Positions 11,503 to 42,983 of a DNA stretch of 64,000 nt are shown here, in pieces. Position numbers and translations under genes: made by a program. Within the stretch, counting starts at the first letter, position 1. Every line of letters starts with the position of its first letter. Origin of the DNA: Chrysophaeum taylorii. Taxonomy: Eukaryota > Sar > Pelagophyceae > Pelagomonadales > Pelagomonadaceae. The stretch covers positions 1 through 64,000 of the forward strand of contig JAQMWT010000004.1 in assembly GCA_029834535.1 (NCBI GenBank). The letters are read 5' to 3'. Below the pieces are notes generated by a model that was given only the letters and a program-made list of their open reading frames with translations, was not told the DNA's origin and did not search any database.

Positions 11503-11542
11503 CGCCCTCACATATTGAACTCGGGATCGAGCGAAATCTGGA

Positions 11543-13971: not shown

Positions 13972-14103
13972 GCAACAGAATTATTGGTTCCATTGTCGTG
14001 CATAATACTCTGCCGGTGGCACTTCGTCGTGACACATGTGCTTCTCGAGAACAGAGTTATCGTTGTCCAGATGGTCGACTAGGTCAGACGAGTGATGCGG
14101 CTT

Positions 14104-16500: not shown

Positions 16501-16534
16501 GGGGCGTGCTTCGGACATCACGAGTCCTGTGGGG

Positions 16535-18056
16535 TCATCGAGAGTGATTCTCCCTCGTTAATCGATCGCGGCAAAGCCGGGGTGCGAACGACTCATATAG
16601 TTGACCCACGTGGAGGGGCGCGAGCAGCTGTGCGCGGCAGCCAAGGAGGTGGTGAAGGCCACGACCAGGAAAGCGGCACCCTTGGGGACTGTCATATAAA
16701 AGGCGTGTAGCGGCGAAAAGACTGCGGTCTGGTGGGGACCATCCAGGATCGGGGGGCGCGAATGGATGGTGAGAGAGGCGCGCGTGAAGTAGCCGCATGC
16801 AAGGGCGGTAGCGGCGGTGCCTGAGATGTGGCCATCCAACTGGTAGACATGCGCTGATTCGGATGCGTGATAGCAGCGACGCGTGTTCCAGGCAACGAGT
16901 GTTGGGTGGTTGCAGCAAATGGCTGTGCAGCAATGTGAATACCATAAGGTTCGGGATGGAAGCCATGGAGACATATGGGGTGCCGTGTGCATCCAGTCCG
17001 AGATATAGGAAGGGTGCCTTGAGGCGTGCGAGCATTTGGCAGATGCGTGCATTATCGGAAATCGAGAGTTGGGCTGCGGTGGCGCGTTTATACGAAAATA
17101 TAGCCTTATGTTGATAGTAGTCAAAGGTCGAGCGGGTCACAGTGCCGCGAAGAGCGGGGGCGGGTATCCAGAGGTGTTCTGGGATTGTGTGAGCGGGATC
17201 CAAGAAGGGAACCATGCTCGGGGGGGGATGTTAACCAGGAGGAGGCGGCTTTCTCGAGATTGTAGCCGTCTAACGGGTGCCGAGCGAAGACAGCGAGGTA
17301 GCGGTGCTTGCTAATGGCGTCGCCGAAGGAGGAGGCGTTGTAGACACCGGAGTGTCGAAAGTAGCCCATACTTTGATAGTGTTTTGCGAGTTGCGTGTAC
17401 TCGTGGTGAGTTTCCGGGTTTGGAGGGACGTTCTCGACAATAGTATATGTCGGGAGCGTGCAACGAACAAAGCGAACTTGCTCCGTGACGAAAAGATCGG
17501 CAGTCGCTGGGGTCGCATAGCCGTCGTATTCCTTCATTATGCTTAAGTGTTGACAAGGCAGGGTGAAAACAACCATGTCGAGTCGAGGCAGTCGTAATTT
17601 GCCAGTTTGAAGAGCGGCAGTAAGCTGCCTTAGATCCCTGTAGTGCTGGGCATCTGGGAACAATTGTTGCGCGCGGGCATGCATAGTGGGGTTGATTTCA
17701 CAGGTGACGACGACCGTAATTCCTTTGTCGAAGCGTTTGCGAACGGAAGTGAAGCCCTCTTGGTGGAGTCCACCTGCGATAATAGCAACATGCAGCGGGG
17801 GGGGTTGTGTGTACACAGAGTGGTCCGCGGTGCCAGTGAGCGCATATTCTAAGCAAGGACTCGGCAGTCTGAAAGACTCCGGCAGAAAAGCAGAATGTGT
17901 TTGCAATTTGTCGAAATCGAGGAAGTGATGCTGCGAGCGTGTTTTGGCGACCTTTTGGGTGATGTTTGTTATCTCGTCCTCGAGAGACATGTCGCGACGA
18001 GTGTGGAAGCTAAGCACATTGTCGAGGGCATGTTTTGGATGGGAGGGTAGGGACAA
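16535..18056 (-). pseudogene. C5-cytosine methyltransferase domain of the copia element (fossil)
   Basis: A 312-residue minus-strand ORF (17,121-18,056) carries C5-MTase motifs. IIAGGLHQEGF is motif I (about 17,751-17,783), CEIN is motif II (about 17,690), and TLPCQHLS with the catalytic Cys is motif IV (about 17,545-17,570). VENVPPNP is motif VI (about 17,416-17,440) and SKHRYLAVFAR is motif VIII (about 17,279-17,312). The region continues to about 16,535 with a possible target-recognition part and a weak motif X candidate. Motif IV (PCQ) and motif VI (ENV) differ from the gypsy MTases here (SPPC, EQ), so the two are not close relatives. It sits between the protease-like region and integrase. 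Family function is DNA cytosine methylation; sequence preference is unknown. Confidence 0.85.
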
Positions 18057-18101
18057 GAGGCCGTTGGACTGTCTATGAGCGATAACTACAGCAGTGGTTC
18101 C

Positions 18102-20840
18102 TCATAGATTTTTGTAGTCGTGCGGATCTGAGGTCGAGTGGGTCAGCAGTTCGTACAAATATGGAGGGTGCGGCAGTGGCGAGTCTGTTGCCTGAACAGT
18201 GAGGGCTTTTAGTTGAGACGTCGCTATGACCTGTAAAAAGTGTGGTACGACTAGGAAAACCAAATAGAGCGCATAGCCTGTGGAGCTCTTTGTGTCATGT
18301 GAGGAGAGACCTGCAGCCTGCAGATACAGTGGTTGATACCTATGAAGTTGCGGATGAGGGTGCCTCTTCCCATGCGGATAGTGTGCTCGGGGATCCAGCG
18401 TATAGATCGGGAACAAAGTTCTTGATGGTGCGAGTGAAAGGAACAAATGCACCGCCATCAAGCAAAGAAAATTCGGTGCCGGGGCCGTTGCATCCGTGCA
18501 GGGAGTAGGTCTTCTTGGGAGACTTGCCTGGGTATAGACAGCGCACATGAAATCTGCGACTTGGGGAGAAATTGTCGATGAAGGGGAAAACTTGGTTATC
18601 GCGAGGCTTGGTGCCTGATTCGGTATGTTGTGGTTGGCGGCAATGGCGTGTCTTCGACCGTTAGCGAAAAAGCTGGCTCTTATGAAGGGCACATATGTAT
18701 TGATGACGCTGTATTCTTCAATAGAGTCTTCTTGTTGAGCTTCGATTTCGGGAACTTTATCGTCGTATAAGCCGAGGTGCCCACGATCATCATATAAACC
18801 GAGTTGGCCTTGGTCATCGTACAACGAGCCGTCGTCGAGTGCGCCCTCGTCAGCTTGATCATCCGGCGGGTGGTCGGAGGAGAGTAGCTGAAGGAATTCG
18901 GCGGCGTCGTTATCAGCTTCTGAGAGAAGGTTCTCGTCGGAGATGGTGGTGATGAGTTTGATGAGCTTGTTCATGCGGACTGGGTTGGAAGTATGTTGCT
19001 GGCCGGCTTGACAGAGGTTACGGGTGGTCTGAATCTTGCGGCGGACATCACGTAGTGGGACTTTGAACCGTTGGTCAGGGGTGGATGGCTTAGGAGGATG
19101 GGCCTGTGTGGGAAAGGTGACCTTGCGGAGGTGCGGGTGTTCGCGATTGTCAGGGACAGGAGGAACACGGGGATTTGGCTTATGTTTGGAGGGGGTGACC
19201 GGGGTTGCTTTGGGCTTGGGACTGTCATTGATGTCGTAGTATGACGGTGAGCGGGGATTGGGGGACTTTTTGGTTTTCTTTGGATGGCGGGATACTTTTT
19301 TCTTGCGATAAACGTGGAGGTGTTGGATGAGAATGTTGTCCTCGTCTGGATCGAGATTGGCTTCTGTGAAAAAGGCGCCGACAAGGTCGGCGTCTTCTGG
19401 AGGTGCTTCGTCTGGATCCGGGGGTATCTCGTCGTCAGGGGGGGATGCGTCATCGTCATCTTCGGTGAGGTGGAAATCAATGCGGCGAGGACGAAGGCGT
19501 GGGTTGTCATTGTCTTTTGTGGGCAGACGACCGAATTCTGTGACAAATCGGAGTGGCTTGAAATTGTGCGAGTGGTGGGGCTTCAGCTGAGCCCAAAAGG
19601 TGCGCTCAAAGGTGGAAATGACCGTGATGCGTGCAATCGGCTTGGGCAGATGATGAATCGCGGCCTTATCTTCGTCGAGGAGCTGAGAGTCGTGTGGAGT
19701 GCGAAGACAATTAGCAAGACGGGCGAAGCCTTTGATGCGAGTAGGCGCGCGGGAATCCAGGAGGCTGGAGGGTTACTTGAAGCGAAGCATTTTATGGATG
19801 TCTTCTTCGATCGTGTCGTCGCTGAGTTGAAGAGAGGCATCGTCGGTGATTTGGCGGAGTTGCTGCTGAACATGAAGGGGGTAATCGATGTAGTGTGCGG
19901 GCTCGTGGATCTCCGGGTTGAACGGCGTCTCCAAGTGCGAGTTGAATATGTAAAGGGCATGGTGGACGTGGTTCTGGCCCGTGTGCTTGTCAAGAGCGAG
20001 GCGAACTTGGTGAACGAATTCGAGGCCTATCGGGTGCGAAGATCCGAGTTTGTCGATTTCGTCGCATGCGGGGTGTTTGACGGAGTCGCGACCGGCGTGC
20101 AGGAAACGGCGAAACAGGGGGTGCACGGTCTCGCGGAGGTACACGGCGAAATCAGCTTCTTTGTCCTTGAGGTGAGGTTGCGTGATAGGATAGAGCTTAC
20201 CTTTCAATGCATTGGTGGTGTCTTTGTCTTTGTCTTGACGTTCTTGGAGTTTGGGCTCGTAGATGTTGTCAAGGAAGTCCTTGCCGAATTTGCGGTAGAA
20301 GCCCTGGTAGTAGACCAGGCGACCTGGAAAATCTGGGGTGTTGCCAGATGTGGCGTGGAGTTCGGGGTCTTTATCGTATTCTTCGATGCAGTGGCTGAGG
20401 AGAGCGTCTGCGAGATCGTTAGATCCGCGTATGACGGATTCCCATGTGTGTAGAAGCCCTGCAGGAAGTACTGAGTGATGCCGGTCTCAGGCATGAGATG
20501 TTCGGCGAACAACTGCATGACATGAAAAGAGAGCATCGGAGGGGTTACTTGAGCACCGTGCATCGACTTGAGGACAGAGACAGGGGGGTCTGAGAAGGAG
20601 GTGGCCTTGCTCTTGGGGTCTTGTTGAGCCGGAGTGGGGGGAGCAGTCGCTGCGGCGACGGCAGGTCGCGGGGTGTTTTGCTGCGTCTGAACAGCGTTGA
20701 GTCTTGCTCCGAGTTGATTTAAGCGAGCTTCTTGATCTCGAATGGTGTGTTGATACCGAGCTTCTTGAGCTTGGTATTGGACTTTTTAGTTGGCCCATTC
20801 CTTTGCCAGGTCTTGGTTGCTTTAATTGCGTGTGGTGGCC
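18102..20840 (-). pseudogene. Copia gag and protease-like region (fossil)
   Basis: Minus-strand gag starts near 20,840 (MATTRN) and continues with a helix-rich stretch (ARYQHTIRDQEARLNQLG), a capsid-like part (GITQYFLQGFYTHGNPSYAD; HPIGLEFVHQVRLALDKHTG) and an acidic Pro/Asp linker near 19,400. A Pro/Lys basic stretch and a short repeat of LGLYDDxGH type near 18,750-18,830 follow. Near 18,480 is HGCNGPG, the motif shared with the other copia-type elements here, followed by FSLLDGGAFVPF, which resembles the D-S/T-G active site of a retropepsin. Gag would form the particle. I cannot see a CCHC knuckle. The fossil is broken. Confidence 0.65.
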
Positions 20841-21108
20841 ATCTTGTTTGGTTCAGGAACCTCAGAGAGCAGAACTAAACTGGAAATCCTGGTACTCTAC
20901 CGATACCGGACTGGTCCCCGTATATCTAGAGAACAGTAATTTCTAATGTGTTACCCTTCGGTAGAGATTGAGCAGTGGTAGGCTGCCACTGTCTTGTTCC
21001 TAACAACAGGGGGCAACACGGTGTTGATATCACAGCGTATTCTGGTTTTTAGTGTGAGATAAGAATACGCTAACCCTAGGATAGGGGGGTACTAACCCTA
21101 AAACTCCC

Positions 21109-21440
21109 ACCCCACTCTCATTTGAGCTCGACGCTCGCACCCCCGCCAATCTAAGCTGCTTTGATCAGCGCACGTTCGCTGACCTTTGAGTTTCCTCCTA
21201 AACCCGAAAACGCCCCCTTACACCCACACCCACTCTCATTTCAGCTCGACGCTCTCACCCCCCCAATCTAAGCTGCTTTGATCAGCGCACGTTCGCTGAC
21301 CTTTGAGTTTCCTCCTAAACCCGAAAACGCCCCCTTACACCCACACCCACTCTCATTTCAGCTCGACGCTCTCACCCCCCCAATCTAAGCTGCTTTGATC
21401 AGCGCACGTTCGCTAACCTTCGAGTTTGCTCCTAAAACCC
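21109..21440 (-). repeat. Three tandem copies of a 117 bp LTR unit
   Basis: The marker GCTGCTTTGATCAGCGCACG starts at 21,155, 21,272 and 21,389, exactly 117 bp apart. The 3' LTR has one copy (marker at 11,430). A more diverged copy lies at 46,490-46,610, away from any copia LTR. The second and third units look almost identical, so expansion is recent compared with the age of the LTR. Confidence 0.85.
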
Positions 21441-22505: not shown

Positions 22506-22835
22506 TGTAGTGGTTTTCTCAGAAACCCGCCCCTCCTGGCCGGACCGGGGGCCTCAACAACCCTTCCTCCCAACCCGAACCGCGGGTGAAACCACCACAC
22601 GCCCGATCTCAGCGTAATACCTCACGCCATCACGAAATCGGACAATCAAAAGAGGGTAATATCAAGAAGACAACAAGAAAGCAATACAAATGCCCGGTAC
22701 ATTGGGTCCAGTGGAAGCGCAGGTGAAGGTGTCAAGATGACACCCCCCCATAAATGCAAGGTCAATACCAGGGCAACAATCAGGGTAAGTCAGGTGGCAG
22801 GCAGGCAAGTGGGGGAAATGGGCGTTACTGCCACA
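22506..22835 (-). repeat. 3' LTR of the young Gyp2 element
   Basis: 330 bp, TGTGGCAG...ACTACA on the minus strand, so canonical TG...CA ends. It differs from the 5' LTR at four sites, three of them transitions and one of those at a CpG. Confidence 0.9.
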
Positions 22836-22870
22836 GGAGCCCCCTACTTGAGATGAAGTCGTCCTCGACT

Positions 22871-24260
22871 TCAAGGGTGACGAAGGTCACGCTCACGAAT
22901 GGTACGATAAGCTCGTTCAGCTACATCAGCAGGAACTTTGTTGCTGTGGAGACCGAAGTTAGTGACGAGGACATCGATTTCATCCGGGCGAAAATCAGTC
23001 ACACAGGGTTCACAGCCCTCCATGTTGGGTCGTAGGCGTGTGAAGCTACCTCCGTCAGGATCTTCGTATTCTGGTCTTAAGCGCCGCTCAGCCAGAGGCT
23101 TAGTAGGATCAAAAACGCGAGGATCATCGCGTGGTCCCAAATCGGTATAATAGTGAAGCGCAACTGTATCATTGTCGTAGTCATATTCTTCGTAGACTTC
23201 GGCAACATAGATACGCTTCTTCCACGCGTTGGATCGTCCTTTCACCCTGAAAATCGCGAACTTACCATGTTTGAATCGGTCGCGGTCCGAGGGTAAATGT
23301 AGAGGGGCTGAAGAAGTGTCGATGGTTGGCACTTTCAATGGCACAATCGGTTGGACAGATACTACAGCCGATTCAGCATCATCGTCGTTAACGTCTCGAG
23401 TTTCATAAACGACGGGAGAGATCATTCTAGTAATCATGTAAGGTCCGCGCCAAATGGGCCGAAGCTTGTGGCGTGTGTTAGGCACGAAACGCAGAACATA
23501 ATCACCTGGGGAAAACTGGATGTCAACTTGGTGGGCATCATAGTTGAGCTTTTGACTCTCCTGTGCTTTCTGATGAGCTCGTGTAACGAGTCGACTATAA
23601 AATTCAAACTTGTTCTTAAAGTCCACCAAAATCTGATGACGTGATTGCGGTAGATCACGCTGTTCACTCAAAAGATTGTAATCAGGTGGTAACAGGGGTT
23701 GCTTGCCAGTACGCATCATTAAAGGTGAAATCTTCGTTCCCGGAATGTACATCCTATTGTACATGAATGACACATATGGGAGGAAATTCGACCAACATGG
23801 CTGACGCTGTTCATCGATCGCAGCTCGCAAGAAGGCTTTGATGAATCGATTGACACGCTCAGTATGATTACTCTGAGGATGATACGGAAGGGTAGTACGA
23901 TAACGTACGTTGAATTGACGAACAAACGTGCGAAATAACCTGTTCGCGAACTCATTTCCATTATCCGTGACTATGCACCGTGGGAGACATCCCTCGAGTA
24001 AAATCTTGTCAACAAACGCGTTCAAGATCGAATAATCGTGCTTCGTGTTGATCAGAGCTAATTTCAAGAAATGTGATGCTGCGTCGTACATGGCGAGTAT
24101 GTACGTGTACAGGTCAGCGCCTCGTAGAGGTCCAATCAAATCCATACCTAGGACATAGCAGTCTCCGACGCGATTCGGTTGACAGAGCAAGCCATGGCGC
24201 TTAGGCATGGTGGATCGAATCTTCTGACAAATAATGCAGGCATTGACGAACTCATTAACG
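22871..24260 (-). CDS. Gyp2 integrase with long C-terminal domain (fossil element)
   Basis: The 445-residue minus-strand stretch has the integrase catalytic triad: Asp in LGMDLIGPLRG (near residue 23), Asp in VTDNGNEF (near 100) and Glu in NHTERVNRF (near 136). PGTKISPLMMRTG follows, as in gypsy integrases. A GPY/F-type module follows (WRGPYMITRMISPVVYET). The last 150 residues form an extra domain with GKFAIFRV, IYVAEVYEEYDYDNDTVALH and YYTDLGP, then RRLRPEYEDPDGGSF. This tail is shared with Gyp1 and resembles a small beta-barrel reader such as a Tudor, BAH or chromo-like fold, which might steer insertion; that is inference. Integrase joins the cDNA ends to target DNA. Confidence 0.85.
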
Positions 24261-24289
24261 GATGATGAGACGTTTGGCCACGAATACCG

Positions 24290-25470
24290 TTATAGGATTT
24301 GATTCGCCGTGGAATCTCGTCCTACATGGCCTCCGAACAAGCCTCGGTGATGCATGGCGATCACACGCTTCTGCATAGACTGAGGGACCACAATAAGACG
24401 TTGAGAAGCTGAATCATCGACCTTATACAACACGTTGTCATCAATCTCATACGGTACGGATGACTGCTCGTCTTGATCTTTCTGTTCAGAGTCGAGTTTT
24501 CGTCTGATGCGCTTGCATGTTTCATCCTCCGCTTGTTCTTTCGCTATCTCATCGAGAGTGATCTCATCCTCCGCTTGATCCGCAAAAGGGAGACGTTCAA
24601 CGGAGTCAACTGGCTCAGATTCGTACGAGAATTGAGGCGGTTGTACGTTCTGTCGCGTACTAACTGCTACCATAGCTGCGGTGGGTCCGCTGTCCGTCAG
24701 CATGGGCATCGTCACCGAAGAGAAGGTGAAGCAAGCTGTGCCAGGGACATCGGTGGGGATTTATTGGAAAATCAAAAAAGCTTCATTGATCGGTTCCCCG
24801 TCTTCATCTTTTTCGATCAACTTGTCGATAGGGTTGCGCGACAGACAATCCGGAATACGCATGCCAGGGGAGCTTCCAGGTTTGTATCCGAGCTCCCGGT
24901 CGAACGCAGCAAGCCGCATAGCCCAACGTGCTAACTGTCCAGACGTATGATTCGAATCCCGCAGAAACGTTAAGTTACGATGATCCGCCTCTAACTTTGT
25001 CTGATGACCTTCGATATAAAATCGGAAATTTTCGAGAGCAGAGAGTACTGCGAGGAGTTCCAAGCGCCGAGGATCATACTTCCTCATCGACTTAGGCACG
25101 GTTCGACTCCAGTACTCGACAACTCTCTCTTCGATTCTTTCTCTTCCATCGTCGTCAACGACTGGCACTTTTCGAAATAGGTAAGCACCCAACCCATGCG
25201 CGGAAGCATCAGTTCGAATGTAAAAAGGCAACGAGTAATCAGGATGGTAGACGCCCTTCGACGTGACAATAGCCTCGATGATGGCATCCCAAGCTTCCTG
25301 ACACTCTTTCGTCCACGTGAATTTCACGTCCGGCAACGTCAGTTGTCTTAATGGCTCTGCAACTTTCGCAAAATTGCTTACATAACGCCGGCAAAAGCTC
25401 CCCATTCCAAGGAAAGATCGCACTTGCTTCTTAGGGTCAGCATCCGACAAAGTGCCAGGGATTGGCATGT
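24290..25470 (-). pseudogene. Gyp2 RNase H and integrase N-terminal region (fossil)
   Basis: On the minus strand RNase H has FYIRTDASAHGLGAYLF near 25,200, ALENFRFYIEGH, then LEADHRNLTFL and GQLARWAMRLAAFD, ending in GMRIPDCLSRNPID. The next stretch (24,290-24,715) reads DEIAKEQAEDETCKRIRR, then RVIAMHHRGLFGGHVGRDST, the His-type start of the integrase zinc-binding region. These order as in gypsy pol. The fossil is broken. Confidence 0.8.
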
Positions 25471-26200
25471 GTCTGATGGCTTCTAAAGATCTTGGTGATG
25501 GAAGAAGTCCGTTCGGGGTAGATAAATATGACCCAAAAACTCAATGACTTCTTGCATAAAATGAATCTTCTTGATCTTGGCACTGTACCACTTCAAGGCG
25601 AGATGGGGAATAACTTGCACAAGGCACTACAAGTGATTATTTGTATCTGCGTGACCGGCGAGAATATCGTCGATATATGCCACGAGATCACGATATAGCC
25701 ATTGCGATAAGTCAGTGTTCAACTGCTTGCACAACAAACTTCCGGCTGGTTTGACTCCCAAAGGTAGACGCATGTAGCTGTACGCTCCCAGAGGACTAGT
25801 GAAGGTGACCACATCTTGTGCATCCAGCGACAATCGTAAATTGTGTAGCCCCAACGAATATCCAAACTGGAACGACAGAACTTGTCAATGAGAAACATCA
25901 ACGCGTCAGCCATGCTCACACTCGGCCAGCTATCATCCTTGAGCAATGCATTGAGGCGCCGTAGGTCGACAGCTGCTCTGTAAGCATTGGAAGTGCCAGG
26001 CTCAGCACCTTTCTTAGGCAACATCAAAATAGGGAAACCCCATGGAGAATTCGCGGGACGAATAACTCCATCTCGGGTCCATGCTTCAATCTGCATCCAA
26101 ACATTCAATCTTTTCTTTCGATAACCGATATGGCGAGAGTTTGACGGGAGTCGGGTTCTCTTCTTTGAACCGGAGCGTCACTTCGGGTGAATCAACAGGC
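25470..26200 (-). pseudogene. Gyp2 reverse transcriptase (fossil)
   Basis: On the minus strand RT runs from KLSPYRLSKEKIECLDAD through EAWTRDGVIRPANSPWGFPI, AYRAAVDLRRLNALLKDDSW, HDVVTFTSPLGAY-type sequence (here DVVTFTSPLGAYSYMRLPLG) and the catalytic AYIDDILAG near 25,660. This is a standard Ty3/gypsy RT. The old plus-strand copy has the same sequence in pieces at 10.2 and 43.6 kb. The fossil is broken. Confidence 0.85.
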
Positions 26201-26800
26201 CTCATCACATCATCGAATAATGCCCATGAATACGAGATTAAATGCTTCATCATCAGCTTCTCGTCATCATCTAAGGCAGGATGCTTCATCATCAGCTTCT
26301 CATCATCATCTAAGGCAGGATGCTCTGTAATACCCAATTCAGTCATCACCTCTTCGACCTGCGCGACGGTCGGAGGGATGACCTGCATGCTCTCCTGATC
26401 CGCTAAATGAGGAGGCATCACCGGTGAAGGTTGACCATGTTCGTCGTGAGGCGCGTCCGCCCACGGAACGTCGTACGTATTGAAATACGCTGGTCGCTCT
26501 TTCGCGGTGCCTTCTTCTTCAGCAGTTGCGGAGAGCTGGTTATCAACTTGGTTGCTCTGCATAACAGCAGTGGCGACGGTGCCCCCTGCAAAAGATGAAG
26601 CCGTCCCAGGCGATGTAACTGAAGGCGGTGGCGGGGTGGTGGTGGCAGCAGCGGATGGTGCAGGACTCGCAGAAGAGTAGAGTTCATCGGGCGCAATCCA
26701 TGATACACTTCGAGTGGCAGGGTCGAGCGTTGGAATGCGCGACTCTACAGCAAAAGGTGAAAACCGCAGAATATGGTGATCAGGTTGGGCTAGCGTAGTC
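26200..26800 (-). CDS. Gyp2 linker between methyltransferase and RT (fossil element)
   Basis: A minus-strand stretch links the MTase to RT. It has SRIPTLDPATRSVSWIAPDE, a Ser/Ala/Pro/Thr-rich segment, FNTYDVPWADAPHDEHGQP, then VAQVEEVMTELGITEHPALD. A short tandem repeat near 26,240-26,320 encodes HPALDDDEKLMMK twice. SWALFDDVMRPVDSPEV leads into RT. Gyp1 has a parallel linker (FDVPWKDAPRD; ELGIPDNRHLDDEAKLMLRH), so the segment is conserved in the MTase-bearing group and may be a domain of its own. Function unknown. Confidence 0.6.
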
Positions 26801-27771
26801 GTCGCAATATTCCGCAACTTACCCAAATTCCAAAGTGAAGTTTCAAACGAATTGTGCACTGCTAGCGCAATCCGCGTCATAGTCGCGGGTGGCACCATAC
26901 TGCCAAGCATCATCGTAGCTACTGTCTCGGAAACTGTCGCACCCTATTGCCACGTAGCAGGAACGGTCATAATTTCCTGGTGCATCTGCAACGTGAGTGG
27001 ACGGGTGTTCGAGAAATGAGGTCCTAAGCGGAGCTTATTGCGCGTCACCGTGAAGGCAGGGCCGATAGCCGGGCGCGTAGATGAGAAACTGTTAACTATA
27101 ATGAGCGGGTGACCACCGGTAAATCCCAACGCTGGGCCAAAACGGTCCCGTAAATTCGGTGGTACACGCGATAATAACGGCAGTTCCAAGCGAACATTGC
27201 AAGCAAGTAGGCGCGTACGCGAGCACAGCAGCTCTGGCGTGATACTATAGAAATCAACAATACGCGGCACATCAAATTGGTGATGCACAAAAGGGATCAC
27301 TGATGGTTCCTGCTCGAGTGTCCATCGTCCAATCACATAAGGCGCGTTGCGGAAATGACGCAGGACCCAAGAAGGAATAGTAGCGCCCTTGCGTGCGTCC
27401 CTGTAGTGCAAATTGGCAGTCGATCCATAGATACACGGCGGACTGGCGTGAAAATAAGAGTGCTTCCAACAATCTGAATGTAAATACGACAACACCAAGT
27501 CGTATGTACGACGATGAGATTCCCCCAACTCATGCAAAACATAGGGAATCTTCGGAAAATTGAGTTCAAAGGTGGCTCGGGCTTGAGGACAAGCATCCAA
27601 AGCCAGGACAATGCGAAATGAACTGCCATATAGCTCATTGCATCGCCGGGTACCCAACGTTGATCCTCCAGCGCCAGCAAAGTAGACAACGACGAATGTG
27701 TAGGTGATGGGTATCCAAACCAAGGAGGCGTGCTTAGATAGCAGCTCCTTAACAGTCGCCTCCATCTCCAT
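26800..27771 (-). CDS. C5-cytosine methyltransferase domain of Gyp2 (fossil element)
   Basis: This is the best-preserved gypsy MTase in the window. In the 276-residue stretch ending at 26,944, motif I is YFAGAGGSTLG (residues about 30-40), an acidic ALD lies at 57-59, and SPPC with the catalytic Cys at 110-113. LEQE has a Glu in the motif VI place (about 153), SRTR is motif VIII (184-187), and RPLTLQMHQEIMTVP near the end fits the segment ahead of motif X. LGSMVPPATMTRIALAVHNS (about 26,850-26,910) is motif X. The domain is compact, with little room for a target-recognition region. It methylates cytosine C5 in DNA in known relatives. Position between protease-like and RT is shared with Gyp1. 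Old Gyp2 at 7.8-8.6 kb has the same set. Confidence 0.88.
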
Positions 27772-28660
27772 TTCTGGTGTTTTTTTTCACTTCTTCATCT
27801 GGAGGTGGCTGAGGAGGAGGTCTGTCACTCAAGACATCCTCCTCGACTTCGTCGTCGTCAACAGCAGCCGTAAGAGTGGCATGACACACGTCATCAATGG
27901 CTTCTAGCTGCATGTTGACACATCCTTCATGCGGCATGATCTCGCCTTCGACCACCGGGACTTCGGGGTCGATACCAATGGGTTCGTCACCAATGTGCTC
28001 CACATCCACATGAACTTCGTTGGGCTCATCAGCACAATACGATGAATAGGAACCAGGTACAAGGCGGAGATCTTGGAGGAGTGTCCGATAAGGTCGGAAT
28101 ACATGACTCTTTTCCAGCGGCACATCGCACTCCATCTCCAAGAAGTACGGTTGGCTTGGAAGAAGAAGTCGAGTACTCGTCACGTACGCGAAATGAGGGA
28201 TGATATCTTCCTCGTATGCAGGGCATTCAAGTTGGTCTTCAGCTTTTCCAGCAGTCTGATCACCGGAAGGAATGTGATGGTGATTCGCTCTGATACGAAT
28301 AGAACGCAATAGACTGTCATAACTCCACGGTTTACCAACTGGCGTCCAAGTTTGGATGTTTCCGTATTGCACAGCAAGCTTAGCTGTCGGGAACATCTGC
28401 ACTACCTGCGGAGTCGCATCGAATGCATCAATGTAAAGCACAATTCCATGCTGGTCTTGTGGTGAGGCGGAAGTCCGATTCTCGAGAACTCCAATGGCCA
28501 CTTCAGAACGCCGAAAAATAGCTCTCTCTGTCGCATAATCCAAAATCGTACCCAAGAGTCGTAAACTGAACCATTCACGTTCAAGCTCCTCAACCGTAGC
28601 CCGAGGTGGACAAGGAAGCTTCGTCGCTTCTTGCATAGCATCCAGACAGTCCTCATCATG
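27772..28660 (-). CDS. Gyp2 protease-like end and acidic linker (fossil element)
   Basis: The minus-strand stretch reads LRLLGTILDYATERAIFRRS, then VLYIDAFDATPQVVQMFPTA, DSLLRSIRIRANHHHIPSG, and an acidic tail (VEHIGDEPIGIDPEVPVVEG; DDDEVEEDVLSDRPPPQPPP) leading into the MTase. The first part corresponds to the segment after the retropepsin-like fold in Gyp1. I could not place the D-S/T-G active site in this copy. Function of the linker is unknown; its length and position are conserved in Gyp1. Confidence 0.55.
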
Positions 28661-29828
28661 CTGGCGCTACTCTTTCATTGTGATGGTCCCATCCTTGTAT
28701 TGTTTCCACATCTGCGGTCGTTCAACTTCCCACTTGCGATAAGCTTCCATAGGGGCGAGTTGATACTCGGCTCCAATCACGTTCATCGCTATGTTTCCAC
28801 ATCTGCGGTCGTTCAACTTCCCACTTGCGATAAGCTTCCATAGGGGCGAGTTGATACTCGGCTCCAATCACGTTCATCGCTATTGAGGGTTTATCAATCT
28901 TCCCCTCCATCATACGCCGCAAATGCATCCACCACGCGTCCACCTCATCACGGTCCTTGGTAATTTGCCCCGTGAGATTCGAGAATGTGATACGTGTCAT
29001 ACCAGCAGCTCCCTTCCTGACGCGAAGTATTTCTTCTTCGTCACGAGGACGCGCCGAACCGGGGTCAGTATGATGGTGCGGGGTAGGCTCCGGTCGACTT
29101 CGCGGTGGCTGGTCGTCGGTCAGTGCCGATACAGCGTCATTATCGTCGTCGGGCGTAACACGCGTAGCATTCGGAGAGGTTGGCCGTGCCTCTCGAGCAT
29201 GCGCCTGCATGGATTCCTCCATCATTCGCCGAAGTCGATCGTTGTCGATCCGCTGTCGCTCCACTTCTGAGCGTTGTTGTTGAGCGTCGCGGCGGGTGTT
29301 CTCGAGTTCACGTGTGATTTGCTCCATCTGCGACTGGTTCATCTCGAATCGTTCGTTGATGGTCTGCCGAACCTCGGGGTCGACATCCCCGCGAAAATCT
29401 GTCGCTCTCATATTCACAGATGGTGGCCTAGGAGGTGCACTCTCCTCTGGTCCACGCATCGTCCACGCATCGCCGTAAACGGTTCGGGTTCCGCTCGAGA
29501 TCTCCGTAGTATTCATCGCACGTTCGTAGGGTCGTGCGTACGGGAACGTCGGCTCCCCTTGTCTTGAAGTTGCGTCTGACGCAACCGTATCTCCCCCTTC
29601 GCCGCCGCGTGGAACCGGGAGGATGACCACGCTCGGGGGGCTGTCGAGGCTATCATATGATCTTGCCTCTCTTCCGATGCCGCTTTCCTCGGCTTCCTGT
29701 CGTTGAAAGGGCGTACTGAACGGTGTTCTTCCAATAGACGCAAACGGAGTCCCTGCACTGAATCGTTGCAGACGCCCCTGTGCGTCCCGAAACCACTGCG
29801 ATCGTTCTGTCATTGGCCTCTCTGCCAT
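28660..29828 (-). CDS. Gyp2 gag (fossil element)
   Basis: A minus-strand ORF of 368 residues starts MAERPMTERSQW. Residues 1-130 are Ser/Pro/Arg-rich. Residues about 160-215 form a likely coiled coil (QSQMEQITRELENTRRDAQQ; RSEVERQRIDNDRLRRMM). An acidic Pro-rich stretch follows, then a capsid-like start (MTRITFSNLTGQITKDRDEV; WWMHLRRMMEG). Near the end a 90 bp unit is repeated in tandem (about 28,707-28,886), encoding AMNVIGAEYQLAPMEAYRKW twice. Gag would form the particle shell. Compared with Gyp1 the capsid part is short; I see no CCHC knuckle. Confidence 0.65.
28707..28886. repeat. 90 bp tandem duplication in Gyp2 gag
   Basis: The block starting CACATCTGCGGTCGTTCAAC occurs at about 28,707 and again 90 bp later at about 28,797, with both copies nearly identical. 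As the unit is a multiple of three it repeats 30 codons. High identity suggests a recent duplication. Confidence 0.85.
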
Positions 29829-30240
29829 GATCGCGATTTGCCCGGATAATAGGTTTGTTCCGGATGTTCACAACTCACTTGTTGTATTCTTTTCGTCAGA
29901 CGACAATTGCCGGCAGCCGTCTGACTACTGCGCGCTGTACCGGTGCGCTGGTCTTACGGAAGCATTTGCCTTGCGCGTGAAGACTATGGACGGCCTTCCC
30001 GGTGTAGTCGCTCGCCGTCAGGGAGGTGGTCTGCCTCGCGCGAGCTAGTTAGGTCTTATAACAATGCCTTACGATATGACGATCGATATGCAAAAGTATG
30101 CAAAATGAGTCCTAGTGACTCCGCTCCCCGTTCGATCCGAATCACGTAAAATGAACCCCGCGGCGGTACCCGTGATCCTCTGGATCTTCACCCACAAATG
30201 CGTCGTCTTCGCACTCACTCGACCGTTACGAACCGACTCG

Positions 30241-30304
30241 CCGCCGAGAAACAGGAGATCGATAGTCCGGGAGTTGGACTATCGATTCCCGTTTCTGAGA
30301 CCAC
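30241..30304 (-). promoter_or_regulatory. Gyp2 primer-binding site and adjoining hairpin
   Basis: Directly inside the 5' LTR, on the minus strand, is TGGTCTCAGAAACGGGAATC, starting one base from the LTR end. TGG at this place pairs with a tRNA 3' CCA end, and ACGGGAATCGA resembles the complement of a tRNA T arm. I cannot name the tRNA. Next to it, 30,258-30,286 is a perfect inverted repeat: 11 bp arms ATCGATAGTCC and GGACTATCGAT around a 7-base loop. In the RNA this would be a stable hairpin just behind the primer site, possibly for packaging or dimerisation. Confidence 0.6.
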
Positions 30305-30634
30305 TGTAGTGGTTTTCTCAGAAACCCGCCCCTCCTGGCCGGACCGGGGGCCTCAACAACCCTTCCTCCCAACCCGAACCGCGGGTGAAACCACCACACG
30401 CCCGATCTCAGCGTAATACCTCACGCCATCACGAAATCGGACAATCAAAAGAGGGTAATATCAAGAAGACAGCAAGAAAGCAACACAAATGCCCGGTACA
30501 TTGGGTCCAGTGGAAGCGCAGGTGAAGGTGTCAAGATGACACCCCCCCATAAATGCAAGGTCAATACCAGGGCAACAATCAGGGTAAGTCAGGTGGCAGG
30601 CAGGCAAGTGGGGGAAATGGGCATTACTGCCACC
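30305..30634 (-). repeat. 5' LTR of the young Gyp2 element
   Basis: 330 bp, almost identical to 22,506-22,835. On the minus strand it ends ACCACTACA, followed by the primer site. GGAG on both outer flanks marks a 4 bp target repeat, as for the solo LTR (GCGT). Confidence 0.9.
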
Positions 30635-30638
30635 GGAG

Positions 30639-33013: not shown

Positions 33014-33348
33014 TGTGGCGTAAGGAGAATTTAGGGGCTACCTGGCGTGCCTTCGAATCCTGGCTCGCCGCTCGCGTCCGTGCCCTTGGTGGAGTCGCTG
33101 GACGAGGATGGCCGTTCTCCAGCCACACAACCACAAACAACTTCCGTGCCTGATCCTCACAACTTGAGGATCGGCTGTTGCTTTATGATTAAGATATTAT
33201 CGAAAAACAGAAATCAGGGTGACACATGTCGCGGAAAAGGAAGATGATGTCATAAAGAAAACTGACATCATCACAACGGAGTAGGGTGCCCCTTATAAGG
33301 GGGGCCCTAGAAGAGGGGTGAGCCTTAGGAGGCGGGAGTTGCCGCCAC
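33014..33348 (-). repeat. 3' LTR of the minus-strand Gyp1 element
   Basis: About 335 bp. On the minus strand it begins GTGGCGGCAACTCC (family start TGTGGCGG) and ends CTTACGCCACA. Differences from the 5' LTR are mostly transitions, three of them at CpG sites. Confidence 0.9.
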
Positions 33349-33389
33349 CGGACTCCCCTGGTAAGAATTCGAGCTGCCCCAGCGAGGTG

Positions 33390-35102
33390 CTAGCGCGAGG
33401 AGCGCGGCTTCGCCTTACGAGCATCTCGTGAACGAATCTTCTGGTAAACGCGGGTGATGACCGGTTCAGGAACTCGGCCACTGCGTAAAGTGAACTTGGG
33501 GATCGACACATCAATCTCGTGCGGAGCGAAATCCGTGACACAAGGAGTTGTGTTGGAAGAAATTCTGGACTTGTCGGTGAAACTTCGACCTTCAACGTCC
33601 TTGAACTCGGGCTTGAGCTTGCGGTGCGAAAGGTGAGAGGTCGGCTTGAAATAAGCGACATCATCGTTCGGACCCAAATCGGAATAGAAATGTAGAGCAA
33701 CACGATCATTTTGGTAATCGTAAGGCTCATAAACTTCAGCAACATAAATATTCTTGCGCCAATCAGAGCGCTTCCGGTCAGGAATCCGGAAAACAACAAA
33801 CTTACCGTGCTGATAATCATCACGGAAGGTTTCTTCGGGTTTGCGGATGGTTTGATCGACGATCGGAGGTACCATCACAGGCGTGATCTGACTAACACGA
33901 ACACGTCGTTCTTCGGGCGGAGAGTCGAGAGACTCGATCCTATAGGTGACCGGGGAAATGCGTTCCTTGATAATAAACGGTCCTCGCCAGTTCGGTCGAA
34001 GTTTGTTCTGAAGGAAAGGAATGTAGAGCAAAACGTGCGATCCTCCCTTGTATTCAACATCAACATGATCAGCATTGTAAGCCAATCGTTGTTTCTTCAA
34101 AGCTTTATCACGAGCCTCGCGGACGATCTTCGTATAATACTTCAATCGTTCACGAGTTTCGGCGACTGCATCAGAGCGAGTCTTCGGCAATAATCGCGTA
34201 TCAAAGTCCATAAGCGTGTAGTCGGTCGGCAGCATCGACTGACGGTTCAGGCGCAGCATAAAGGGAGAAATCTGCGTGCCTGGAATAAACTTGCGGTTAT
34301 AACAAAACGCAATATAATGAGCAAAGTCAGGCCAATCCGTGATGTTCCGGCCATGAAGGCAAGTACGGAGGAAGGCCTTGATAAATCGGTTTACACGCTC
34401 AGCCGGGTTCGACTGGGCATGATAGGGAATCGTAGTTTGGTATCGTGTGTTGAAGAGATGGCAAAACTCGCGCATCAACTTGTTCACGAACTCTTTACCG
34501 TTGTCGGTACGAATCATCTGGGGCAAGTAGCCCTTGAGAAGAATGTTAATGACAAAAGACTCGAGGACAGACTCGGCAGTCTTATCGTTCAAAACATCCA
34601 GAATCGAGAAATGCGAGAACGGATCAAAAAATACTAGAAGATACGTCTCGGGACCAGCGCTGGGCAAGGGTCCGAATAAATCCATGCAAAGAACAGCACC
34701 ATCACCATCGTATACGGGCTGCTGCAAGAGTCCAGCTCGTTTCGGCTCAGGCGTACGAGTTTTCTGGCAAACTAAACATTCAGCAATGAAGACTCCAACT
34801 TCGTTCGACATGTGGGGCCACCAAAATCGTTCTTGGATAGCCTGGACGGTACTGTGACGTCCCATATGACCACCGTTAACCGGAGTGTCATGGTAGAGTC
34901 GAATAATGCGCTTGCGCAACGTAGCAGGTGCAACAATCATCGGGTGCAAATCAGCAGAAATGCGGCAAAGAACGTCTTTAACGACTTCGAATCGTTCGTT
35001 CGCTCGGGAACGTCGCGGCGTCTGACCTTGGGCCATTCGGTAGCGAATATCCTCGCAAGTAGCATCAGATTCTTGCTCACGTGCGATCTCAGCGAGCGTC
35101 AT
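33390..35102 (-). CDS. Gyp1 integrase with long C-terminal domain (fossil element)
   Basis: A 570-residue minus-strand stretch. The zinc-binding part has HDTPVNGGHMGRHST and CLVCQK (H-x-H, C-x2-C; about residues 73-110). Catalytic residues are Asp in CMDLFGPLPS, Asp in IRTDNGKEF and Glu in NPAERVNRF. PGTQISPFMLRLNRQSM and a basic helix follow, then the GPY/F module (WRGPFIIKERISPVTYRIES). The last 180 residues form the same extra domain as in Gyp2: HGKFVVFRIPDRKRSDW, NIYVAEVYEPYDYQNDRVAL, FYSDLGPNDD. It ends with Arg/Lys-rich KAKPRSSR. Longer than usual gypsy integrases because of this tail, which might read chromatin at the target. Confidence 0.88.
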   Translation of the reverse strand: MTLAEIAREQESDATCEDIRYRMAQGQTPRRSRANERFEVVKDVLCRISADLHPMIVAPATLRKRIIRLYHDTPVNGGHMGRHSTVQAIQERFWWPHMSNEVGVFIAECLVCQKTRTPEPKRAGLLQQPVYDGDGAVLCMDLFGPLPSAGPETYLLVFFDPFSHFSILDVLNDKTAESVLESFVINILLKGYLPQMIRTDNGKEFVNKLMREFCHLFNTRYQTTIPYHAQSNPAERVNRFIKAFLRTCLHGRNITDWPDFAHYIAFCYNRKFIPGTQISPFMLRLNRQSMLPTDYTLMDFDTRLLPKTRSDAVAETRERLKYYTKIVREARDKALKKQRLAYNADHVDVEYKGGSHVLLYIPFLQNKLRPNWRGPFIIKERISPVTYRIESLDSPPEERRVRVSQITPVMVPPIVDQTIRKPEETFRDDYQHGKFVVFRIPDRKRSDWRKNIYVAEVYEPYDYQNDRVALHFYSDLGPNDDVAYFKPTSHLSHRKLKPEFKDVEGRSFTDKSRISSNTTPCVTDFAPHEIDVSIPKFTLRSGRVPEPVITRVYQKIRSRDARKAKPRSSR

Positions 35103-35978
35103 ATTATCGGGTATCTTATCGATATAATCTTGTAAGCGGCTGCGTCCTTGAAGATCTGTGGCTCATCGCGCGCACGGTTCTTCCGACGTTGTCTCGTAGC
35201 GTGAGACGTAGCCAATTTCATCGGATCCTTTTCCGGATCTTCTTCCTTGTCTTCCGGCAGTTCGGTCGTAATAAACGACATTATGAAGTGGCAGCCGGAG
35301 GCGGGAACTCCTCGGTCATCAACAGGTCGGGGAAGCTCTGGGAACACCAAATAAGCGTGGTTCAAAGGTTCTCCAAACTCGTCAGTCTCGATAACATGAT
35401 CTATCGGGTTGCGGGAGAGACAGTCAGGGATACTCATTCCCGGTGACTTTCCCGGCTTGTAACCAAGTTCAGGGTCAAAATTGGCGAGGCGCATCGCCCA
35501 ACGAGCAAGCTGCCCAGACGAGTGCGTCGCCTTACGTACAAACGTCAAATTTCGGTGATCGGTCTCCAAAACAGTACGGTGCCCTTCGATGTAGGCTCGA
35601 GAGTGCTCTAGAGAAAGTATAACTGCCAGCAGCTCTAGCCGACGGGGCTCGTAATTGCGCATCTCCTTCGGCACAGCTCGGCTCCAATATTCAATCACTC
35701 ATTCTTCTCGAGTCACTCTTCCGGCATCGTCCTTGACTTCGACAATCTGGAAGAGATACGCTCCAAGTCCATCCTGGAAGCATCGGATCGGATCTGAAAA
35801 GGCAGATCATAATCGGGGTGGTATACTCCTCTGGAATCAACCAAAGCAATAATCCCAAGCTTTCTGACACTCGGGCTTTACACCTTCGAGGCATAATCGT
35901 CTCAGCGGTTCCATCCATGAACTCCACCGCGCATTCATATCTCCAGTTCCACGATTCGAGTAGCCTCAATATGCGCAA
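35099..35978 (-). pseudogene. Gyp1 RNase H (fossil)
   Basis: On the minus strand: VIEYWSRAVPKEMRNYEPRR, LELLAVILSLEHSRAYIEGH, LETDHRNLTFVRKATHSSGQ, LARWAMRLANFDPELGYKPG and GMSIPDCLSRNPIDHVIETD. This is the RNase H and tether region of gypsy pol. The plus-strand copy at 60.8-61.5 kb has the same sequence. The fossil is broken. Confidence 0.85.
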
Positions 35979-36720
35979 GCAGCCGATGAAGAGCGTATGG
36001 GTATTCGGGAAGTATTCGGCAAAGTACCTGGAATCGGCATCTTCTGCAGTGCTTCCAGCGTCTTCGGATTCGGCTTCAAGCCCTCTGGGGTAGAAATGTG
36101 TCCCAGAAATTCTATATCATCCTTGAGAAGGCGGAACTTCGCGGTTCGACCGCTGTACCCTCTCTGTGCCAAATGACACATCACTTCGATCAAAGCTTGT
36201 AAATGTCGATGAAGATCGTCGGATCCCATCATAATATCGTCAACAAACGCAACCAAGTCTTGATACATCCATTTCGAAAGGTCGCTCGCCATTTGCTTGC
36301 AGAAAAGAGCTCCGGCCGTCTTCACACCTAGAGGTAATCCCACGAAACTATGAGCGCCAAGTGGGCTAACCATCGTGACAGCGTCTTGCGCTGCCGGATC
36401 CAGACGAAGGTTGTGGTATCCCCGTCTAATATCTATGCATGTCCGCCATCGTCGCATAGCGAGAAAGCTAAAGCATCATCTTGTCGAATGTTCGGCCAAC
36501 TGTCATTGACCAATTGATCGTTGAGCTGACGTAAGTCAACTGCAGCACGGAACGCGTTTGACGGTCCAATCTCTGCTCCTTTCTTTGGAAGCATCAACAC
36601 AGGAAAGCCCCAAGGTGAGTTGGCCGGACGAATGACTCCATCCCGGCACCACTCGCTGATCTGCTTGCGGAGACAATCGAGCTTCGCAGCCGTCAATCGG
36701 TAGGGCGTCATCTTAATCGG
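35966..36720 (-). pseudogene. Gyp1 reverse transcriptase (fossil)
   Basis: On the minus strand: MTPYRLTAAKLDCLRKQISE, CRDGVIRPANSPWGFPVLML, FRAAVDLRQLNDQL, DIRRGYHNLRLDPAAQDAVT, SPLGAHSFVGLPLGVKTAGA, then the catalytic AFVDDIMMGSDDL near 36,230-36,260 and HISTPEGLKPNPKTLEALQK. These are the standard gypsy RT boxes. Compared with Gyp2 (AYIDDILAG) it is a clear sister family. The fossil is broken. Confidence 0.88.
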
Positions 36721-37200
36721 TCGCGGATTCGCGTCTTTGAATCATAGAGACACAGGAGTTGAGTCTACAGGTCTCACAATCGGGTCGAAAAAGGCCCAAG
36801 AATATTGCACACAGTGACGGAGCATCAGTTTCTAGTCTCATTTCCGGGTGGCTTTTGTTGATCCTCTCGCCTTTGACACGAACACTCGGCTCGCTCTTAA
36901 TCTTCGGTTCCCGATCTCGCTCAGGATCTGGCGGATGGTCCAAATTTGGTTGTCGGGGGGGGGGGCAGCAGAAAAAGCACGAGACGTCCCCGGCTCATCT
37001 GTTGCAGGCGGAATCAACGGTACCTCTGGAGGTTCCCATTTGGTGCGATCTTGGAGATCATCAGTCGACACCCATCTTACGACACGTGTGCGCGTGTTTA
37101 ACAGCGGAACTTGCGTGACGAAGGGTGGTTTCATCAATTTGCAAATAATAATCAAACGGTCGGTCTGCAGGACTCAACGCTGACGGCAAAGCTTCGCCGC
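36720..37200 (-). pseudogene. Gyp1 linker between methyltransferase and RT (fossil)
   Basis: The minus strand has VPLLNTRTRVVRWVSTDDLQ and a Pro-rich stretch (PPEVPLIPPATDEPGTS), then charged sequence leading to RT. The plus-strand copy (59.4-59.95 kb) shows the same segment followed by FDVPWKDAPRD and EVDKVVRELGIPDNRHLDDE. A domain of unknown role, shared in outline with Gyp2. Confidence 0.55.
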
Positions 37201-38150
37201 TCAGGTGAAAATCCTTGGTCACAGAGTTGTGCAGATCAGTACTAATAAGGTCATCGTGTCTGGTGGCACGACGGACGCCAAGTGTTTCAACGAGGTCGTC
37301 CTGGAGAAGCCGGCCCAATCAAAATCAAGGGGCATCGTCAGCAACTCCGAAGTCATTTTCAGATTCGGAGATCTGTAATCGGAACGGTGCGGTCCTACGC
37401 GAAGCGGGACACGCGTAACGGTATAAGCTGCGTCTGTCGCGGCTCGTGATGATCCTAAATTGTTCATCTGAAGTAAATGTCGTTCGTCGGCGTAGCCAAG
37501 TGCTGCGGCGAACTCTTGCTGCATATTCTTGCAAGTCTTTGGAACTGCGCGCAAATGGAGCGGATGGCTGGAAACCAACAATCGCACGCGACAGCTCATC
37601 AAACTGGGCGTTATGTCGTAAAAATTGACGACGTACACGTAAGGGTGCAAACGTGCAACGTAAGAAATAATCGAGGCCTTTTGCTCTATCAACCACATGA
37701 AGAAACCAGCCATCTTGCATAATTTCATCGTCCAGTGGGTAGCGGTGACTCCTTTCCCAACATCTCTGGAGGTCAAGTTGCACAGAGCGGAGTGTACGCA
37801 GGGTGGCGACGCGACACACATCGACGACGACCATTCCGCGTAGGGCAAATAAGATTCGACCAACCGTAAGGTTGTAACATAGACCACCCAGTGTGTGCTG
37901 CACCACAGGAATGTTCGGAAAATTCTTATGGTGGATCTGGTTGGCGGTGTCCGACGCATCGAGTGCTAGCACGACTCGAAACGACGTTCCACACAAACGA
38001 CGTTCCACACATTTCGTTGGCTCGTTGGAGACCTAAAGTACTGCCTCCGGCTCCACTGAACAGCATCACCACCTTGCGATAAGTGATTGGAAGCCATTGA
38101 ACCTTTTCGTATCGGCGGCGGATCTCCGCTTCGGTGATCTCGCGGCATTT
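37200..38150 (-). pseudogene. C5-cytosine methyltransferase domain of Gyp1 (fossil)
   Basis: Minus-strand motifs in order: LFSGAGGSTLGLQRANE is motif I (about 38,030-38,070), ALDASD follows (about 37,970), and ASPPCVHSALCNL is motif IV with the catalytic Cys (about 37,790-37,815). IEQKASI has a Glu at the motif VI place, SCRVRLLV is motif VIII, SPNLKMTSELLTMPLDFDW precedes motif X, and ASVVPPDTM is motif X (about 37,255-37,280). The set equals that of Gyp2 and of the plus-strand Gyp1 copy. Motif I matches the F-x-G-x-G-G consensus well. Upstream is the protease-like region with an acidic linker. Family function is DNA C5 methylation. Confidence 0.85.
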
Positions 38151-42981: not shown

Positions 42982-42983
42982 CC

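Follow-up and report, generated by a model that had tools for sequence, protein, structure and literature searches.

Retrotransposons that carry their own DNA methyltransferases (DNMTs) have been described in PMC5890265, the accessible parts of which report SymbioLINE-Dnmt and SymbioDIRS-Dnmt3 in Symbiodinium and KnitGypsy-Dnmt3 in Klebsormidium nitens. These examples bear out the sequence-only reading of the DNA studied here, according to which retrotransposon-borne methyltransferases (MTases) are known in dinoflagellates and charophytes. Gypsy-borne DNMTs are already published in the form of KnitGypsy-Dnmt3, which, as described in the same parts of that paper, resembles the Gypsy elements reported below in that an LTR Gypsy element encodes the DNMT within its Pol polyprotein, exists in many copies and shows purifying selection. 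A further parallel is Symbiodinium, an alga without Dnmt1 for which hundreds of retrotransposon DNMTs are described, the SymbioLINE carrying an orphan DNMT lineage. In yeast, both SymbioDIRS domains tested methylated CG, while the KnitGypsy and SymbioLINE domains gave no methylation, a result termed inconclusive there.

For Copia elements the literature is sparse. A single sentence in the accessible part of PMC12344493 places DNMT3s in 'LTR Copia and DIRS' elements and cites the 2018 paper (PMC5890265), which, in its accessible parts, reports Gypsy in Klebsormidium and describes the Copia elements of Symbiodinium as being without a DNMT. A survey of microeukaryote DNMTs (PMC9998398), as far as its text is accessible, reports retrotransposon DNMTs only by citing the 2018 paper, and beyond the sentence in PMC12344493 no other report of a Copia-borne C5-MTase was found in the open-licence papers searched.

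In this study, a C5-MTase domain was found within the polyprotein of three abundant LTR-retrotransposon families of one genome, namely two Ty3/Gypsy families (Gyp1 and Gyp2) and one Ty1/Copia family, all represented in the window (the whole analysed stretch of 64,000 nucleotides). Judged by sequence comparison, what is new is the Gypsy capture with an EQ active site, in which an affinity to DNMT3 is not visible, together with the Copia capture. Compared by description, KnitGypsy carries a Dnmt3 and DIRS-like repeats, whereas Gyp1 and Gyp2 have plain LTRs and EQ; the carriers in Symbiodinium are DIRS and LINE elements, whereas here they are Gypsy and Copia elements with an integrase. The host of the two captures is a eukaryote, probably an alga, and probably lies outside the dinoflagellates and charophytes. 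The Gypsy-type features of the window are as follows.

22506..30638, minus strand: Ty3/Gypsy element of family Gyp1, flanked by an LTR pair (98.8% identity over 334 bases; domain map)
30305..30638, minus strand: 5' LTR of the Gyp1 element (LTR pair)
28562..29795, minus strand: gag region of the Gyp1 element, a fragmentary match (tblastn with L063 gag, two pieces)
27866..28564, minus strand: Gyp1 protease-like region (residues 861-1240 of L063 as tblastn query; no Pfam protease match)
26827..27744, minus strand: Gyp1 C5-MTase with motifs I to X, interrupted by a single premature stop at 26944 (tblastn; PF00145 E 1.5e-4 up to the stop)
25516..26250, minus strand: reverse transcriptase (RT) of the Gyp1 element (tblastn)
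24791..25510, minus strand: RNase H of the Gyp1 element (PF17917 E 1.9e-24; tblastn)
23765..24436, minus strand: integrase of the Gyp1 element (PF00665 E 1.1e-7; tblastn)
22506..22839, minus strand: 3' LTR of the Gyp1 element (LTR pair)
7769..8665, plus strand: second Gyp1 C5-MTase, three stops (tblastn; PF00145 E 0.028 for one frame)
33014..43330, minus strand: Gyp2 Ty3/Gypsy element with LTRs 33014-33358 and 42984-43330 (96.3% identical over 347 columns; domain map)
37237..38123, minus strand: Gyp2 C5-MTase, split over two frames (tblastn)
36086..36828, minus strand: reverse transcriptase of the Gyp2 element (tblastn)
34305..34976, minus strand: Gyp2 integrase (frame 33390-35162 matches PF00665 at E 5.9e-12; tblastn)
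54894..62420, plus strand: second Gyp2 element, coding part from gag to integrase (tblastn domain map)
58426..59327, plus strand: second Gyp2 C5-MTase, split over two frames (tblastn; PF00145 E 3.7e-4 for frame 58003-58821)

Both families show the Ty3/Gypsy layout, with LTRs and with RT (RVT_1), RNase H and then integrase in this order (LTR pairs, tblastn, Pfam). The sequence-only reading had described two gypsy families with a compact C5-MTase between the protease-like region and RT, in four copies at 7.8, 26.8, 37.2 and 58.4 kb; the LTR pairs, the tblastn domain map and Pfam agree with this arrangement, and all four domains were located by tblastn. Their position, given as always the same, holds for the MTase at all four sites, but in the 7.8 kb Gyp1 copy only the first part of the RT is in place (tblastn). 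The term protease-like is justified by position and by a DGMA motif at that place, but no Pfam aspartic protease model matched upstream of RT in the Gyp polyproteins. All four Gyp MTases of the window are damaged, by stops (one at 26.8 kb, three at 7.8 kb) or by frame breaks (37 and 58 kb); this damage was overlooked in the inventory of four, as was a fifth MTase, that of the Copia element (16901-17819, minus strand).

Better-preserved copies were found elsewhere in the genome. In L063 (Gyp1, contig C225), one frame of 2129 aa runs from a gag with a zinc knuckle through the protease-like region, the MTase (1261-1565) and the RT (1819-1982) to the start of RNase H. In L064 (Gyp2, contig C49), MTase and RT share one frame of 1868 aa, and RNase H and integrase occupy a second one. 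The MTase and RT lie in one frame in all four long copies that were read (L063, L064, L065 and L066), by which bacterial contamination was rejected as a source of the domain; a domesticated host gene was likewise rejected, since the MTase copies sit inside LTR elements (LTRs, domain map). The Gyp1 and Gyp2 MTase domains are homologous (41% identical), which, together with the RT tree described below, points to a single capture as their putative origin.

Searches of the same genome (an assembly of 70.8 Mb in 697 contigs) gave at least 147 matches with the Gyp1 MTase domain, at least 150 with the Gyp2 domain and at least 130 with the Copia domain, fragments being included in each case and the Gyp1 and Gyp2 lists overlapping in some distant rows. 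The top 52 rows of the Gyp1 list all match the 280-residue query from residue 2 or earlier through to its end, and 37 of them are stop-free (counted by eye). With so many open frames available, it can be asked directly if self-methylation promotes retrotransposition.

The assignment of the domain was examined with Pfam PF00145 (curated cut-off 22 bits) and with four alignments: A1 (Gyp MTases, 10 members), A2 (Copia MTases), A3 (Gyp MTases plus P0001, a transcriptome protein described below) and A4 (six C5-MTases, namely those of phage KP15, Paracoccus and Acidovorax, E. coli Dcm, host Dnmt2 and host Dnmt5). The profile search that had been proposed for the 26.8 kb Gyp1 copy (segment 26944-27786) gave an E-value of 1.5e-4 and a score of 21.8 bits, just under the cut-off, because motif X lies beyond the premature stop at 26944. 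Three frames of the 37 kb Gyp2 copy had no PF00145 match at E<=1. All ten A1 members matched at E<=1 (best E 1.1e-9), the MTase domain of L063 scored 38.4 bits, above the curated cut-off, and the strongest match among the ten window frames scanned was that of the Copia frame 17121-18101 (minus strand, E 5.1e-12). Complete copies thus match PF00145, and the catalytic Cys is kept in most copies examined, so that the proposed reading as a C5-MTase withstood the check by which it could have been refuted.

In profile-against-profile comparisons with A4 the scores were 65.3 for A1, 78.5 for A3 and 43.6 for A2. Reversed profiles gave noise-level scores, and a chance explanation of the match to known C5-MTases can be considered excluded, since none of 100 column shuffles was as good as the observed score for any of A1, A2 and A3. 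Comparison with A4 by hhalign gave probabilities of 95.3% over 91 columns for A1, 96.7% over 264 columns for A3, where the match extends to motif X, and 73.1% over 148 columns for A2. The best matches to PDB sequences had E-values of 0.12 (A1), 0.027 (A3) and 0.011 (A2), none of them significant, and all those listed are C5-MTases. Another type of Rossmann methyltransferase was rejected on the same matches, as all six for A3 and all three for A2 at E<=10 (none significant) are C5-MTases. DNMT3 chains are absent from these six and three matches, all of which are weak.

Among the six references of A4, the nearest is the Acidovorax enzyme for Gyp and the phage KP15 enzyme for Copia, and the TIGR00675 model (dcm family) matched with E-values of 7.8e-5 (Gyp1), 1.1e-3 (Gyp2) and 8.4e-9 (Copia), with scores far below its cut-off of 100.65. 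No relatives of either MTase domain were found at E<=1e-3 among candidates of similar length in 5.8 billion proteins (long polyproteins being covered for Gyp1 only), in viral contigs with A1, A2 and A3, or in prokaryote genomes with A3 and A2. AlphaFold models of the Gyp and Copia domains were of low confidence (pLDDT 38.6 and 33.3), and a fold search from these low-confidence models gave Dnmt2 4h0n as the best match (E 0.13, not significant).

Motifs were counted in 42 Gyp copies (32 Gyp1 and 10 Gyp2) and 11 Copia copies, one per place, after five duplicate loci had been dropped; best-scoring loci were used, so the counts are biased to well-preserved copies. The Gyp set comprised copies with tblastn coverage above 90%, two window copies among them, frame-broken copies falling below this limit. 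The motif numbers and the roles of the motifs follow common usage for the C5-MTase family. In Gyp, motif I is kept in 40 of the 42 copies, SPPC in 40, (L/I)E in 39, EQ in 38, [SC]RxR in 39 and SxVPP in 41, and motif I, the Arg pair of motif VIII and motif X stand in the right order, aligned with known enzymes. The claim that motifs I, IV (SPPC), VIII and X are present thus proved correct (39-41 of 42 copies), and so did that of EQ in place of ENV at motif VI as a trait of both families: Gyp keeps the Glu (39/42) but has Gln next to it (38/42), against VEN in 11 of 11 Copia copies. The residue following the catalytic Cys is I or V in Gyp, versus the usual PCQ. In Copia, motif I and LPCQ are each kept in nine of the 11 copies and SKxRYL in all of them, motif X being weak. 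Taken together, it is nearly certain that the domain borne by the Gyp and Copia elements is genuinely derived from a C5-MTase, and in intact copies it is likely to be catalytically active.

The distribution of the Gypsy-borne domain was extended by P0001, a polyprotein of 2018 aa known from an MMETSP transcriptome. It shares 53% identity with Gyp1 in the RT, and upstream of the RT lies a 305-residue domain with 27% identity to the MTase of Gyp1 (E 8.8e-31 by blastp with three subjects; 94 bits with profile A1). This domain keeps the PxC Cys, EQ and RxR positions and other residues; its motif I is degenerate and mostly lost, and such a domain may therefore persist without a normal AdoMet site. 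The EQ active-site variant, common to the elements and to this distant transcriptome protein, constitutes a defined biochemical question. In the RT tree, P0001, Gyp1 and Gyp2 form one clade (100/100), separate from 12 other Gypsy-type proteins. PF00145 is absent from the precomputed domains of all 12, but it is absent from those of P0001 too, and the PF00145 profile itself does not match P0001, so diverged MTases can escape such annotation. When the genome was searched with the P0001 RT, 22 of the top 23 hits had an MTase match directly upstream (matched by eye). The exception is a Gyp1 copy on C335, which lacks the MTase; there a deletion, which appears to be out of frame, joins the protease-like region to the spacer. 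By these comparisons the Gypsy MTase capture is old, and it would predate the split of both hosts unless the element moved between them, because P0001 has a homologous domain at the same place and its RT falls in the same clade.

The fifth MTase of the window belongs to a Ty1/Copia element with the following features.

11157..21209, minus strand: Ty1/Copia element bounded by diverged repeats at 11157-11484 and 20927-21209 (76% identical; domain map)
18708..20288, minus strand: gag region (tblastn with L065 1900-3633; assigned by position, no Pfam match)
17844..18647, minus strand: protease region (tblastn; IDGGAS motif in L065; no Pfam match)
16901..17819, minus strand: C5-MTase, split over two frames (tblastn; PF00145 E 5.1e-12 for frame 17121-18101)
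15114..15771, minus strand: integrase (tblastn; PF00665 E 0.0055 in the relative L065)
13306..13758, minus strand: start of the reverse transcriptase, RVT_2 (tblastn; PF07727 E 1.9e-17 in L065)

In L065 the integrase (rve, E 0.0055) precedes RVT_2 (E 1.9e-17), which is the Ty1/Copia layout, and the order in the window is alike. The MTase is placed between the protease region and the integrase, and it has the canonical forms of motif IV (LPCQ) and motif VI (VENV). No relation between the Gyp (A1) and Copia (A2) MTase profiles was detected by hhalign (probability 0.1%), which leaves a recent common origin of the two unsupported. The Copia MTase is apparently a second capture, separate from that in Gyp, with no detectable relation beyond the superfamily. 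Two LTR superfamilies of one genome would then have made two apparently independent captures of a C5-MTase; if this is true, such capture is recurrent and selected rather than a curiosity.

Selection on the domain was assessed by dN/dS (Nei-Gojobori), the values for deep Gyp pairs being approximate as their dS is near saturation. Between the Gyp1 copies L063 and L066, dN/dS was 0.062 for the MTase (dS 1.6), 0.021 for the RT, 0.20 for the spacer and 0.18 for the N-terminal part; between the Gyp2 copies L064 and L067 it was 0.048 for the MTase (dS 2.3), 0.14 for the spacer and 0.21 for the N-terminal part (230 codons). The RT is thus lowest in Gyp1, followed by the MTase and then the rest, and in Gyp2 the MTase lies below both its neighbours. 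The all-pairs median was 0.174 for the Gyp1 MTase (196 pairs of 21 mostly close copies), a higher value because decay after insertion counts among close copies, and 0.058 for the Gyp2 MTase (53 pairs of 11 copies), one place occurring twice in each Gyp set (L013 = L066; L045 = L064). For the Copia MTase the median was 0.13 (15 pairs of six copies), with 0.13-0.155 against the most distant copy, L061. The deep comparisons show strong purifying selection on the Gyp MTase, and the domains of these families have been maintained by selection across long divergence.

The proposed function, to which a probability of roughly one in two is given, is that a packaged MTase methylates the new cDNA of its own element. 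The domain would be made as part of Gag-Pol and, because it sits inside Gag-Pol, would enter the virus-like particle along with RT and integrase. It would then methylate cytosines in the double-stranded cDNA freshly made by the element, either ahead of integration or during it. Each new copy would reach the genome with host-like marks, which a maintenance enzyme of the host (Dnmt5 is present) could propagate. That the element's own cDNA is the main substrate is about an even proposition, and the accessible parts of PMC5890265 propose the same substrate for SymbioDIRS-Dnmt3. Counted against self-methylation are the EQ and non-PCQ motifs, the motif I of P0001, the loss in C335, the Gyp1 median of 0.174, the lack of CpG depletion and the yeast result for the KnitGypsy and SymbioLINE domains described above.

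The compact size of the Gyp domain is similar to that of Dnmt2, a tRNA m5C38 methyltransferase, and Dnmt2-type tRNA enzymes account for four of the six PDB sequences matched by A3 at E<=10, none of them significantly (lowest E 0.027); host Dnmt2 takes second place among the six references for both A1 and A3. An RNA m5C methyltransferase is accordingly to be considered. Acting on the element's genomic RNA or on the tRNA that primes it, such an enzyme would shield the RNA or modulate reverse transcription, and RNA methylation is raised for SymbioLINE by the authors of PMC5890265 in its accessible parts. Such a role is nevertheless unlikely: scores this weak do not permit assignment to a subfamily and bacterial DNA enzymes score equally well, Dnmt2 has ENV where Gyp has EQ, and the Gyp domain forms part of a polyprotein. 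A preference for Dnmt2 is not seen with the Copia profile, the Copia domain being nearest to a phage DNA-type enzyme with host Dnmt2 last of the six.

A non-methylating part of the polyprotein, structural or nucleic-acid-binding, for instance in the handling of cDNA or RNA, would agree with EQ for ENV, the loss of PCQ and the low PF00145 scores in Gyp, and with a P0001 domain in which motif I is degenerate while the Cys, Glu and RxR positions stay. This explanation is rather improbable in view of motif I (40/42) and SPPC (40/42) in Gyp and of motif I and LPCQ (9/11 each) in Copia, whose retention is not required without catalysis. It is very unlikely that the enzyme targets other DNA, such as host chromatin round the insertion, competing elements or DNA viruses, as the high copy number of three families and the speculation on an antiviral role of retrotransposon methylases in the accessible parts of PMC6338049 might suggest, given that all four long copies examined have the MTase and RT in one polyprotein, suggesting packaging, and that none of them has the MTase as a separate frame.

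With regard to the preferred reading, methylation of the element's own cDNA, base composition was also considered. For the elements the observed/expected CpG ratio ranges over 1.03-1.34, compared with 1.26-1.46 for three host-gene loci (two of them overlapping). Clear CpG depletion was not found in the Gyp and Copia elements, unlike in SymbioLINEs, which are described as CpG-depleted in the accessible parts of PMC5890265; therefore, no lasting mutational trace of methylation is visible.

The C5-MTases of the host were sought among 474 candidates, of which 123 were scored, giving at least 57 genomic matches to PF00145. Of these, 52 coincide with entries of the Copia list, three more are assigned to Copia by tblastn and two are host genes. 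The two host genes, the only host C5-MTases among the 123 scored, are a Dnmt2 (L001; PDB 1g55, DNMT2, E 3.9e-39) and a Dnmt5 (L002; PDB 7r76, E 7.5e-126), the latter with an SNF2 match in the same frame of 2086 aa. We take PDB 7r76 to be the Cryptococcus Dnmt5, its deposited name being 'DNA repair protein Rad8'. A diverged host DNMT1, DNMT3 or DNMT6 may also be present and could have escaped, because 123 of 474 candidates were scored and the numerous Gyp MTases are themselves absent from the list. Dnmt5 is reported from diatoms, pelagophytes and haptophytes, among others, in the accessible parts of PMC9998398. It is doubtful that Dnmt5 (a maintenance type elsewhere) and Dnmt2 are the sole host enzymes and that the twice-captured MTases of the elements are the main source of new cytosine methylation. 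If this were true, each element would mark its own cDNA, the host would copy the marks, and the parasites would make good a missing host de novo gene. With Dnmt5 and Dnmt2 as the only host enzymes found among the candidates scored, de novo methylation supplied by the elements becomes testable. The assignment of the host as a probable alga comes from a frame that overlaps the host Dnmt2 gene on the opposite strand and contains a chlorophyll a/b-binding domain (PF00504 E 1.2e-13).

The RT of the Gyp1 copy at 7.8 kb was found by tblastn of the window in two separated parts on the same strand: 10195-10398 encodes residues 34-101, and 43615-44065 encodes residues 101-250. The element looks as if other elements (Copia, Gyp1 and Gyp2), together approximately 33 kb long, had been nested within it. 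This copy and the other features considered here are as follows:

Window 7769-10398 and 43615-44777, same strand: 7.8 kb Gyp1 copy, apparently in two parts (tblastn)
Window 47405-52180: open frame of 1591 aa, GC 0.655 (composition and Pfam scan)
G000:C335:25300-27500: L076, Gyp1 copy without MTase
P0001 residues 821-1125: MTase-like domain of a transcriptome-derived Gypsy polyprotein
G000:C621:16962-20237: host Dnmt5 gene, part of it in L002 (MTase and SNF2 matches)

The GC-rich open frame gave no Pfam match at E<=0.01.

In L076, the entire MTase has been lost to a deletion lying between protease-like region and spacer. The MTase-like domain of P0001 retains the Cys, EQ and RxR positions, and its AdoMet motif I is degenerate. 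The canonical aspartic protease site is DTG/DSG; in both Gyp families the expected place of this site is occupied by DGMA (residue 900 of Gyp1 locus L063 and residue 758 of Gyp2 locus L064).

The single 2086-aa open frame of the host Dnmt5 gene carries both the MTase and the SNF2 matches. Host-gene loci (L001, L002 and L068, two of which overlap) have CpG o/e of 1.26-1.46 and TpG of 0.78-0.92, and the Gyp2 loci (L064 and L067) 1.23-1.34 and 0.81-0.88, respectively. Values for the Gyp1 and Copia loci (L063, L065 and L066) are 1.04-1.09 and 1.10-1.12, and these elements may possibly have undergone mild CpG decay.
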